Source: Candidatus Zixiibacteriota bacterium (GTDB taxonomy: Bacteria; JAAXHH01). From it: a stretch of 52,179 nucleotides of DNA. This document shows positions 2,761 through 8,323 of the stretch, piece after piece (position 1 is the stretch's first letter; each line of letters begins with the position of its first letter). The translations under genes were made by a program, and so were the position numbers. The notes under the pieces are model-generated. The model searched no databases. It was not told the origin of the DNA and saw only the letters and a program-made list of their open reading frames with translations. The stretch is from the NCBI GenBank assembly GCA_016867335.1, contig VGJU01000004.1, positions 1-52,179 of the forward strand, read 5' to 3'.

Positions 2761-3213
2761 CTATTCGGAGGCGAGGGTGCCGTCCTGATCGATGGTGCGG
2801 ATAATACCGGCCACTGCCGACTTGTTGGTCGTCCGGCTGCTGTCACCGATCGCTTTGACCACATACGCCGAAGACGTAAGCGTCGTGACCCGGTACGAGT
2901 TCCCGTCGAAATACGTCCCGGCAAGGTCTATATCGTCCAGATTCAACTCGTCCACATCGCTCACCTTGAGCGAAAGACCTGCCGTGTACGAGCCCGAGAT
3001 CGCCGAAAAATCTCCAGCTACCGCCTGAGACTTTACCGTGCGGAACGAGCTTCTGATCGTACCCAGCGCCGCGTCCGCTTCCGAGGCGTACGCGCTTTCC
3101 GTCGCTCCACGATAAAGCGGAATCGCTACCGCCGCCAGAATACCCACGATAATGACCACGATCAACAGTTCGACGAGAGTGAAACCAGACTGCTGGGAAC
3201 GGGGCGTTTGCAT
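2761..3213 (-). CDS. Type IV pilin / major pseudopilin-like protein
   Basis: 150-residue prepilin. The class III leader is short (MQTPRSQQSG); the prepilin peptidase site lies between Gly10 and Phe11 in SGFTLVELL, and Glu15 is the conserved Glu5 of mature pilins. A hydrophobic helix of about 20 residues follows, then a variable globular domain without a clear C-terminal disulfide. An upstream in-frame Met at 3306 is not the start: the sigma-54 promoter maps downstream of it, and the ATG at 3211-3213 has AAGGAGA 7-8 bases upstream. The protein could be a pilus subunit or a type II secretion pseudopilin; no assembly genes are nearby to decide. A terminator follows at 2700-2735. Confidence 0.9.
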   Translation of the reverse strand: MQTPRSQQSGFTLVELLIVVIIVGILAAVAIPLYRGATESAYASEADAALGTIRSSFRTVKSQAVAGDFSAISGSYTAGLSLKVSDVDELNLDDIDLAGTYFDGNSYRVTTLTSSAYVVKAIGDSSRTTNKSAVAGIIRTIDQDGTLASE

Positions 3214-3296
3214 CTTGATGTCTCCTTGTTGGAAAAAGTGAAACCCTTGCTTACACTCGTTTTTGATGGTTGACGTCCACTTCTGCCCCTTACAAT

Positions 3297-3313
3297 ATGC
3301 AAGCATCGTGCCA
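3297..3313 (-). promoter_or_regulatory. Sigma-54 (RpoN) -24/-12 promoter of the pilin gene
   Basis: Read on the minus strand, the sequence is TGGCAC (3308-3313), five bases, then TTGCAT (3297-3302): an essentially perfect sigma-54 consensus with GG and GC elements at the required spacing. The predicted transcript starts near 3287, giving a leader of about 73 bases to the pilin ATG at 3213. Sigma-54 control of pilin genes through an NtrC-type activator such as PilR is known in other bacteria. Confidence 0.8.
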
Positions 3314-3516
3314 TTCCGATATTTTTTCTCAAAAAAATTATAAGTTATTGTAAATAAATATTATAACAATGTCTTCTTTTAAGCCGGACAGGACATTTAT
3401 ACCGTATCCGCATCCGACCTGTCAGCCCTCAAACCCCACGGGGTAGCCTATTGGGTATGGAAACAACGATTGAAACAATATAACTCATTTATTTTTATAT
3501 AATTATATATGGAACA

Positions 3517-3577
3517 TGACACACTGTCAGTCATGACATATCTGACATGCAATGTCATACCTTGTCATCGAGTGTCA
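3517..3577. promoter_or_regulatory. Array of seven TGTCA/TGACA motifs upstream of the pilin promoter
   Basis: TGACA or its complement TGTCA begins at 3517, 3525, 3534, 3543, 3553, 3563 and 3573, at intervals of 8, 9, 9, 10, 10 and 10 bases, so the sites lie roughly on one helical face. The array is about 230-290 bases upstream of the predicted sigma-54 start, where enhancer-binding activators act, and overlaps the last codons of the glycosyltransferase gene ending at 3555. Pseudomonas PilR sites contain a C/G-TGTC core, which resembles these. The rest of 3214-3554 is AT-rich with no gene. Confidence 0.5.
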
Positions 3578-4589
3578 GAGCGAGAAGGTTTTCTAATTTT
3601 TGTATAACGCTTTCTACTCCAAGCGTTTCCATACAGGCATGGGTATGAAGACGGCAGGGACGGTCGCCATGAAGGCTGCACGGGCTGCAGGGCAGATTTA
3701 GCGATATAGCCGTGCTGCGAGCACTGGCAGGAGCAAACCCCAAGCAGGGATGCGTAGGTCCGAAAAGAGCTGCTACCGGGGTGCCCACCGCCGCCGCGAT
3801 GTGCATGGGACCCGAGTCGTTTCCGACCAGCGCCTCGCAACGGGCCACTACGGCGGGAAAAAGCGACAACTCGAACGCGCCTGTGCAGTCGATAATGGGC
3901 GATACAGCCTGCAAGGCCACCTCGCGCGCCACCGAACGATCTTCGTGGCTACCTGCCATCAGGATGCGCATCCCACGGCGGAGGGCGAAATGATCCGCCA
4001 GTTGTGCAAAATAACGAGCTGGCCAGCGTTTGGGAGCTGAAGAAGCGCCAGGAGCCAGTGCCAGTACCCGGTCGGACGGCCCGATACCGTATTCCCGAAG
4101 ACGAGCGATAGCCTCATCGCGCGCCGCAAAAGAAATATCGAGAATCGGAACCCGACTCGCTACGGCTATATCACAACGCTCCAACACGCTTAGATACAGA
4201 TCAACGGTGCTGCGGACCGGCAAGCGAGTTTTGGCTCCATATACCATGGCCATGCGGGCCAGACGGCGTTTGCCATACCGAAAGCTTTCTCCAGCGGCGC
4301 TAAAAAGAGCAAGTAGCCGACTGCGTGCATTGGCATGAAGATCGAACAACCGATCGAATCTTTCTGCTCGCACTTCGCGGATCAGCGGCCAGAGCCCGCT
4401 TGACGGATCGAAAGCCAGTACCCGATTTACTCCCGGAAGTTGCAGTGCCAGCGGCTCATAGACTTGCTTTGTAGCAAACACGATGTCCGCGTCGGTCCAT
4501 TTCTGCCGTAAAGCCTGCGTTACCGGAGCGGTCAGCACGATATCTCCGAGCGAACCCAACCGTACCACTAAAATCTTCGAGGGGTTCAT
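3555..4589 (-). CDS. Glycosyltransferase family 9 (heptosyltransferase-like)
   Basis: 344 residues. The N-terminus ILVVRLGSLGDIVLTAPV is the GT9 Rossmann start, and GNDSGPMHIAAAVGTPVAALFG is the C-terminal donor-binding motif of the ADP-heptose:LPS heptosyltransferases (WaaC/WaaF/RfaF type). The frame is open upstream to 4733, but the ATG at 4587-4589 overlaps the TGA of the preceding GT9 gene by four bases (ATGA), the usual sign of translational coupling. The C-terminal part is rich in Cys (CSPC, CRLH, CMET). It probably transfers a sugar during lipopolysaccharide core assembly at the inner membrane; the exact sugar cannot be read from sequence. It is the last gene of the rlmN-GT9-GT9 operon. 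Confidence 0.88.
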   Translation of the reverse strand: MNPSKILVVRLGSLGDIVLTAPVTQALRQKWTDADIVFATKQVYEPLALQLPGVNRVLAFDPSSGLWPLIREVRAERFDRLFDLHANARSRLLALFSAAGESFRYGKRRLARMAMVYGAKTRLPVRSTVDLYLSVLERCDIAVASRVPILDISFAARDEAIARLREYGIGPSDRVLALAPGASSAPKRWPARYFAQLADHFALRRGMRILMAGSHEDRSVAREVALQAVSPIIDCTGAFELSLFPAVVARCEALVGNDSGPMHIAAAVGTPVAALFGPTHPCLGFAPASARSTAISLNLPCSPCSLHGDRPCRLHTHACMETLGVESVIQKLENLLALTLDDKV

Positions 4590-6785: not shown

Positions 6786-6838
6786 CATACTCGAATGTCT
6801 ACGCGAATATACAACCTGTTCGCTCTTCGAACTTCCGT

Positions 6839-8323
6839 ATGCACTCCTCTTGCCGCATCTCGATCTCTTCGCACGGAAAATCCATAGCTGCATTGGACGG
6901 CTTTGAAGCGCCGCGCGAAAAAATTACCTTTTTGTTTGGCGAATCCGGCATCGGAAAGTCGATGTTGTCCAAAGCCTTCTACGGTCTGTTGGACCCACTT
7001 TCGCTTGACGTGGTGATCAACGGCGCGCCGTATAGCACCTATCTTGCGTCGGAACGGGTTGTAGCCATGCGCGAACACGGGTTTTTCGTGTTTCAAGAGC
7101 CGTCGTCGCACTTAAATCCACTTATGACCATAGAAACGCAAATCCGTGAAGGCAGCCTAGCCGGTTGTGCCACCGAAACGGAAATATTCGACGGTCTCTG
7201 GGAGCGCCCACCCACGTCTCTGCTGGGTGTATACCCCAAACCTCACCGACCCAGCGGAGGGGAAAAACAGCGTTTTCTGTTGACCATGGCATTTAAAAAA
7301 ATCGATCTACATCTCTCGAACGCCTTTCCTTCTCCGCACGCGCTGTTTGTTTTTGACGAGCCGACAGGGAGTCTCGACAACAAAACCCGCAATCGGTTTC
7401 TGTCGCTTCTTTGCGATCGGTTTCGCCAGCGTCCGTTTACCGTATTGATCATCACGCACGACTATTCGATGATTTCGGAAGTATATCGCCAACATTCGGA
7501 CCTTCTTGCATCCACGCTTTTTAGAGAACTGGTAAACCGGGGCAACGGGCTTGCGCTCCTCGATTTTTCTCCACAGACCTATCTCGCATGGCTGACGGAA
7601 AGCCGAGCGCCGCAAAAACGAAAACCGGAGACATTATCCGCTTCTGACACGGTCCTGTTGCATCTGAAAAGCGGTATCGAGGTTTTCGGACGCCGGTTGC
7701 GCTTTTCCACCCCTTCCGGCGAATGCCCCTTGACTGTCCGAAAAGGACAGGTGGTCTATCTCAAAGCAGCCAGTGGTGTAGGTAAGACGACAATCGCCAA
7801 AGTCATCATGGGACTGATACGTGGACAAGGGCTTGACCTTCGTATCGGCGATCTGCACCTTACCGACCTGACGTCGGAAAAGACGTGGCAACGGGAGTTG
7901 TGGGGGCGAAAAATCAGCATGGTGTTTCAACACGCCGACGAAGCGCTCAACCTGAACGCCAGAGCGGGCGACATCTTTGCCGGTCTGCCCCACGCCCGCA
8001 CCCTCACACCAACCCGTGTCCGTGCTATGCTCAACCCCTATTTCCCCTTTGAGATAGACGACGCCTTTCTAAATAGGCCCATCCGATTTTTGAGCGGTGG
8101 ACAGAAACAACGTCTCAATCTACTGCGCGTGCTATCCCTTGATACGGACCTGATCGTGCTGGACGAGCCCCTAAACGGTCTCGATTTTCTCAGCATCCGC
8201 AAGGTTATCGAACTTATCGAACAAAAAAGAATCGAAGGAAGGGGTATTTTGCTTATCTCTCACAACGAGGAAATTTTTGACGGTCTGGACGGTGTGGATC
8301 CGTTTTACCTGACGGTCGCGTAA
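6839..8323 (+). CDS. ABC transporter protein with two fused ATPase domains (oligopeptide/nickel-type)
   Basis: 494 residues with two ABC cassettes. The first has Walker A GESGIGKS (residues 34-41), signature PSGGEKQ and Walker B LFVFDEPTGSLD. The second has ASGVGKTT, LSGGQKQR and LIVLDEPLNGLD. This tandem arrangement resembles fused DppD-DppF/OppDF-type proteins. The first cassette has a short N-terminal strand: no ATG exists upstream, although the frame stays open, so a non-ATG start or a truncated N-terminus is possible. No permease or binding protein of that type is adjacent; the only peptide-type binding protein here is at 49.9-51.6 kb. It is followed 19 bp later by a PhyH gene, so it is probably co-transcribed with it. 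Confidence 0.78.
   Translation: MHSSCRISISSHGKSIAALDGFEAPREKITFLFGESGIGKSMLSKAFYGLLDPLSLDVVINGAPYSTYLASERVVAMREHGFFVFQEPSSHLNPLMTIETQIREGSLAGCATETEIFDGLWERPPTSLLGVYPKPHRPSGGEKQRFLLTMAFKKIDLHLSNAFPSPHALFVFDEPTGSLDNKTRNRFLSLLCDRFRQRPFTVLIITHDYSMISEVYRQHSDLLASTLFRELVNRGNGLALLDFSPQTYLAWLTESRAPQKRKPETLSASDTVLLHLKSGIEVFGRRLRFSTPSGECPLTVRKGQVVYLKAASGVGKTTIAKVIMGLIRGQGLDLRIGDLHLTDLTSEKTWQRELWGRKISMVFQHADEALNLNARAGDIFAGLPHARTLTPTRVRAMLNPYFPFEIDDAFLNRPIRFLSGGQKQRLNLLRVLSLDTDLIVLDEPLNGLDFLSIRKVIELIEQKRIEGRGILLISHNEEIFDGLDGVDPFYLTVA

Follow-up and report, generated by a model that had tools for sequence, protein, structure and literature searches.

The window (the whole stretch of 52,179 nucleotides that was analysed, from a Candidatus Zixiibacteriota bacterium) codes for a type IV pilin-like protein, and upstream of its gene are a sigma-54 promoter and, farther away, a dense cluster of seven TGTCA/TGACA sites (3517-3577). 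We consider it probable that this cluster is an enhancer for NtrC/PilR-type sigma-54 activation of the pilin gene.

The pilin gene (2761-3213, minus strand) codes for 150 amino acids, including a GFTLVELL prepilin motif. The protein is matched by Pfam N_methyl (7.9e-9) and also by NCBIfam TIGR02532, and a profile built from six relatives matches solved type IV pilins. The ATG is at 3213-3211, and a putative ribosome-binding site (AAGGAGA, 3221-3227, minus strand), read from the sequence, precedes it by 7 bp. Upstream is a gene for a family 9 glycosyltransferase (3555-4589, minus strand; PF01075, 1.2e-32), which serves as a marker of the orthologous loci in two related genomes (G015:C368 and G014:C9). 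After 103 bp, the pilin gene is followed by a gene for a HisKA-domain protein, likewise on the minus strand (2028-2657). HisKA (4.2e-7) is its only Pfam match, and Pfam did not detect an ATPase domain in it. Judged by eye, this protein has probable membrane segments. At the contig end (46-91), ACTGACCTACAATTGCTGTCA occurs twice, the copies being 25 bp apart; a similarity search against plasmid DNA gave no match.

A preliminary description had noted a near-perfect TGGCAC-N5-TTGCAT upstream of the pilin gene. The match is in fact perfect, the minus strand reading TGGCACGATGCTTGCAT at 3313-3297, with the GG at -24 and the GC at -12 of the pattern TGGCAC-N5-TTGCW. No other perfect TGGCACNNNNNTTGCA occurs in the 52-kb window, and the promoter is also present at orthologous loci. 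From the position of the -12 element, transcription of the pilin gene is predicted to start at about 3287. A gene for RpoN, which had been suggested as a check, is present in the genome (PF04552, 2.1e-56).

The seven sites start at 3517, 3525, 3534, 3543, 3553, 3563 and 3573, as had been described, and form a putative enhancer for an NtrC-type activator. A further, isolated TGTCA (3420-3424, plus strand) lies between the cluster and the promoter. The array is partly genic, three of its seven sites touching the end of the glycosyltransferase gene: the one at 3553 shares bases with the stop codon, while those at 3563 and 3573 are within the last codons. Such a density exceeds that of all shuffled sequences. 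After dinucleotide shuffling of the window (200 shuffles), the maximum number of TGWCA sites per 61 bp was 1 in 1 case, 2 in 157, 3 in 38 and 4, the highest value, in 4. Nor did any of 2000 shuffles of the 400-bp stretch preceding the promoter reach seven TGWCA in 75 bp. TGWCA is rare in the window overall (68 sites); as a caution, the GC-rich 5-mer CCGCC (272 sites in the window) likewise reaches seven in 61 bp.

The array had also been described as helically phased, a view that had to be given up. The gaps between the seven sites are 8, 9, 9, 10, 10 and 10 bp, which corresponds to a period of about 9.4 bp, and only the four promoter-distal sites have an even 10-bp spacing. The phase coherence, which is 0.88 at 9.3-9.5 bp, drops to 0.69 at 10 bp and to only 0.40 at 10.5 bp. 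The array is thus dense and regular, without being on one helix face throughout.

The comparison covered the window genome (G000), one genome from the same family (G002), one from the same order (G015) and a further one (G014); G000, G014 and G015 represent three families. When the pilin was used as query against 59 genomes (its own and related ones), 44 were matched, mostly weakly and via the N-terminal helix, and close relatives outside G000 were found only in G002 and G015. A sigma-54 promoter with a TGWCA cluster about 110-320 bp upstream of it occurs at two pilin loci each in G000, G014 and G015, the pairs in G015 (C368 and C784) and G014 (C9 and C162) being orthologous to the two in G000. 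Besides the window locus (C4), G000 has such a pilin locus on C285, whose pilin gene is truncated by the contig end; its promoter is TGGCACGGTCTTTGCAT, and four TGWCA are found in 75 bp (0/2000 shuffles). In G015, the locus behind a glycosyltransferase pair (C368) has four TGWCA in 75 bp (3/2000 shuffles), the TGTC core alone being less striking (38/2000 shuffles), and the locus which is divergent from a ferredoxin-oxidoreductase-like gene (C784) has six (0/2000 shuffles). The corresponding values in G014 are three for C9 (7/2000 shuffles) and four for C162 (0/2000 shuffles). Both of these contigs stop at a start codon, and the gene that is cut off is, from synteny, presumably the pilin gene. 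A seventh case (G015:C446) precedes a prepilin operon behind pilB-pilC, with four TGWCA (5/2000 shuffles) and a weaker promoter, TGGCATCGATCTTGCG. Its products are termed prepilin-like from their GF-type N-termini, judged by eye, and the one product that was searched against Pfam and NCBIfam gave no match.

Pairwise identity between the pilin upstream regions, which are otherwise unalignable, is 40-51%, with the promoter kept. Given this degree of divergence in non-coding DNA, the cluster looks as if it has been maintained by selection or by repeated renewal. An IHF consensus between array and promoter that is shared between loci was not found. The expectation that the array is kept at related pilin genes holds in G014 and G015, which belong to other families, but fails in the same family: at G002:C231, a locus of the C285 type where tandem pilin genes follow a TGGCACGATAATTGCC promoter, and the only pilin locus seen in G002, there is no cluster and a single TGWCA. 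As the array is retained in two genomes of other families, its loss in G002 would be the simpler reading. For the third pilin of G000, a divergent one on C20, neither cluster nor promoter was present in the 600 bp seen. It may be added that four contigs (G000:C285, G015:C368, G014:C9 and G014:C162) break off within the pilin gene or at its start, and that the pilin N-termini of C368 and C784 in G015 are nearly identical, as if the two pilin copies were homogenised and break the assemblies. Within the TGWCA cluster of G015:C784 (L055, about 3955-3992) there is a perfect inverted repeat of 15 bp with a 6-bp loop, AATACTGGCATGACA / TGTCATGCCAGTATT.

Across the seven clusters, TGTCA is preceded by G or C in 24 of 33 sites, and the commonest gap between neighbours is 10 bp (7 of 26 gaps). 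The half-site as it emerges from these sequences is (C/G)TGTCA, present in both orientations and at 8-10 bp steps. Tandem (C/G)TGTC sites, by which PilR-controlled pilin promoters are reportedly recognised, are present here. The TGTCA sites might instead bind a regulator that does not act on sigma-54 (for example one of the PhoB/OmpR type, or a repressor), with the sigma-54 promoter being driven from elsewhere. They do resemble the PhoB/OmpR-type half-site CTGTCAT, which in the PhoB boxes of E. coli is repeated 4 bp apart (PMC3333781, in the passages considered). Pho boxes are, however, 11-bp repeats in the same orientation, and such steps account for only one of the 26 neighbour gaps, the orientations being mixed, so that a Pho box was rejected on spacing and orientation. 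Since the cluster is, in addition, associated with sigma-54 promoters about 110-320 bp downstream, we regard a regulator of this other kind as quite unlikely. It was also considered that the cluster might be a hairpin or the transcription terminator of the upstream glycosyltransferase gene, with the end of which it overlaps and for which the inverted TGTCA/TGACA pairs would be suitable. The predicted RNA fold of 3500-3600 is unremarkable, though (z -1.43; 16 of 200 shuffles fold as well), and at loci of the C285 type the cluster is flanked by genes that diverge, a position at which no transcript from upstream terminates. Fold and divergent loci led us to reject a terminator or RNA hairpin, and the recurrence of the cluster beside sigma-54 promoters also speaks against it; this explanation appears very improbable.

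The association with pilin genes was assessed on all 35 exact-consensus sigma-54 promoters of G000, G002, G014 and G015, examining the 350 bp upstream of each; the promoters of G015:C784 and G015:C446 depart from the exact pattern and are outside this set. At least three TGWCA in 75 bp are found at 5/5 pilin promoters versus 4/30 others (Fisher P 4e-4), and at least four at 4/5 versus 2/30 (P 0.0014). As clusters of at least three also occur at four of the 30 non-pilin promoters, TGWCA sites are not unique to pilin genes. These four, each with three or four TGWCA in 75 bp, precede genes for a universal-stress-type (G000:C28), a cation-antiporter-like (G015:C815) and a metallopeptidase-like protein (G014:C250), names which were read from the translations only, and a gene without assigned identity (G015:C1006). 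They could be further members of a regulon, or they could be due to chance. In a control with 80 pilin-like loci from other phyla, none had more than three TGWCA within 80 bp when as much as 700 bp before the match was scanned; this control is weak, as many of the proteins are probably minor pilins and the start of the match was used rather than the start codon. A scan of seven genomes for triple sites also gave triples without a nearby sigma-54 promoter (G000:C303 and C101, G015:C683 and C237, G014:C320, and loci in G005). Ten triple-site loci were inspected, and a plausible promoter with prepilin genes downstream was found solely at G015:C446; the remaining ones were taken as chance occurrences. 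For G015:C546 and G000:C57, the inspection covered ORF lists only.

The cluster is read as an enhancer because NtrC-like regulators oligomerise on several sites, binding to half-sites spaced by about 10 bp (PMC11841059). The sites at 3517-3577 would be half-sites for an AAA+ activator of the NtrC family with a Fis-type DNA-binding domain. Once activated, this protein would oligomerise on the cluster, and the intervening DNA up to the promoter, roughly 200 bp, would be looped. Sigma-54 polymerase waiting at TGGCACGATGCTTGCAT would then be opened by the activator, and the pilin gene would be transcribed from about 3287. Binding to the sites, loop formation, activation and the assignment of the activator are predictions from sequence.

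The window does not have an activator gene adjoining the pilin gene. Its genome contains 12 long matches to Sigma54_activat plus fragments, and two of the 12 look like pieces of one gene that is split between contigs C22 and C227. Activators were collected and compared across six genomes, the four above and two that lack pilins (G001 and G005). One group of response regulators (G000:C8, G014:C109 and G015:C289; 75-76% identity to the G000 copy) is the best candidate for the activator of the array, because its distribution matches that of the array: no counterpart is among the activators found in G002, G001 and G005, the genomes without array. The match is a correlation over six genomes, and we make this assignment tentatively, as a possibility which falls short of being probable. 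The G014 member has a receiver, an AAA+ and a Fis-type HTH domain. The gene in G000 (L184, about 6794-8143, minus strand) is preceded by its own sigma-54 promoter, TGGCACGGGTATTGCA, and has an in-frame TAA between the receiver and the AAA+ domain. Due to this stop codon, the activator may be inactive, altered or misassembled. Other NtrC-type activators remain candidates. The NtrC-like protein from C190 is a less specific one, as it has orthologs not only in G002 and G014 but also in the pilin-less G001 and G005. An NtrC-type activator encoded in the pilus cluster (G002:C387 and G015:C536) was rejected as the PilR for this array, since the activators found in G000 and G014 include no ortholog of it and since G002 has the activator without having the array. 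The copy in G015:C536 (L269, 1618-3000) has an in-frame TGA after the AAA+ core and is followed by the start of a receiver-PilB protein.

The window genome seems to have lost the pilus assembly machinery. In whole-genome searches of G000 and G002, none of the families T2SSE (ATPase, PF00437), T2SSF (platform, PF00482) and secretin (PF00263) had a match, so that G000 is devoid of the recognisable assembly ATPase, platform and secretin of a functional type IV pilus; G014 and G015 have all three. Specifically, PilB/PilT were not found in G000, and a PilC query gave no match in G000 and a single, partial one in G002. Completeness is 99.98% for G000 and 97% for G002. The missing pil cluster could be a gap in the G000 assembly, which consists of 431 contigs; this is less likely because two genomes from one family lack all three protein families. 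In G002, a decaying pilus cluster is found (C387, L239, 3-2633). Its remnants are the end of an activator, the start of a receiver-PilB protein (about 146 residues, with frame changes), residues 49-111 of PilC, and the start of PilM. A prepilin peptidase is present in G000 (C236, truncated at the end of the contig; PF01478, 1.5e-22), G002, G014 and G015; it is absent from G001 and G005, which have no pilins either. G000 has at least three pilin genes. For the pilins of G000, G015 and G002 (first copy), dN is 0.17-0.18 and dS is 1.6-2.6 (near saturation), which indicates strong constraint for most of their history, a selection estimate that includes the time before loss of the assembly genes.

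Promoter and array might then be relics, and the switch might no longer work in the window genome, a view compatible with an enhancer in its ancestor. It would account for the lack of PF00437, PF00482 and PF00263 matches in G000, for the in-frame stop codon in the C8 activator, and for G002 with its decayed pilB-pilC and without the array. A relic would, on the other hand, not be expected to have intact pilin ORFs with a dN of about 0.17 against a near-saturated dS (bearing in mind the time span of the estimate), a retained prepilin peptidase, and a retained promoter with seven exact sites at C4 and four at C285. We consider relics unlikely. The sigma-54-switched pilins may have outlived the type IV pilus machine in this lineage, with G000 and G002 keeping intact, selected pilins together with the peptidase. 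The pilins might then be membrane or secreted proteins or be built by machinery that is not recognised as such, and in the window species they would be controlled by a conserved enhancer with seven half-sites. This is speculative and, on balance, somewhat unlikely as well. A literature search for pilins without assembly genes returned no relevant report. For the enhancer-regulated pilin switch that had been proposed, the promoter, rpoN, the NtrC-type activators and the recurrence of the cluster at related pilin loci are all favourable, while the apparent loss of the pilus-assembly genes in G000 qualifies what can be said about the lineage. The wider question is why pilin genes, promoter and enhancer persist in genomes that apparently have no pilus assembly.

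PilR-RpoN control of pilA is known from Pseudomonas aeruginosa and also from Geobacter, Azoarcus and Myxococcus. The PilR sites of P. aeruginosa, reportedly described by Jin et al. in 1994, are said to be tandem (N)4-6(C/G)TGTC sequences with a TGTC core every 9-11 bp. The window has in common with the PilR-RpoN-pilA system a pilin gene behind a -24/-12 promoter and repeated upstream TGTC sites. It differs from P. aeruginosa in having seven sites in both orientations, as compared to four for PilR, and in their location 200-290 bp upstream, as compared to a distance of about 100 bp. Also, there is no PilS/PilR pair beside the window pilin gene. In form, the window promoter is of the PilR-RpoN-pilA type, with a putative role for PilR. 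In the cited passages, PilR acts with sigma-54 on pilA (PMC6058289; PMC3262810), and pilA of Geobacter is RpoN-dependent (PMC2725144).

Two other systems resemble the window in part, as far as the passages cited describe them. NmpR from Myxococcus xanthus, an NtrC-like activator of pilR and of oxygen genes, has half-sites (GCGCA-N5-TGCGC) that are 10 bp apart, with several sites upstream of a sigma-54 promoter, and it oligomerises (PMC11841059). Its half-site is, however, GCGCA rather than TGTCA, there are two sites per promoter, and the target genes are different. The PrsK/PrsR system also has a -24/-12 element preceded by copies of a repeated motif, at genes for surface proteins (PMC1569441). 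There, the motif ends in TTTACA, is about 63 bp from the promoter, and belongs to proteobacterial PEP-CTERM genes. The analysis yields a half-site with its spacing and a shortlist of regulators, all of them amenable to testing in vitro. PilR/NtrC-type control of pilin genes, known from proteobacteria, would thereby be extended to a lineage outside the well-studied groups: a familiar type of gene switch, encountered here in an unstudied lineage.
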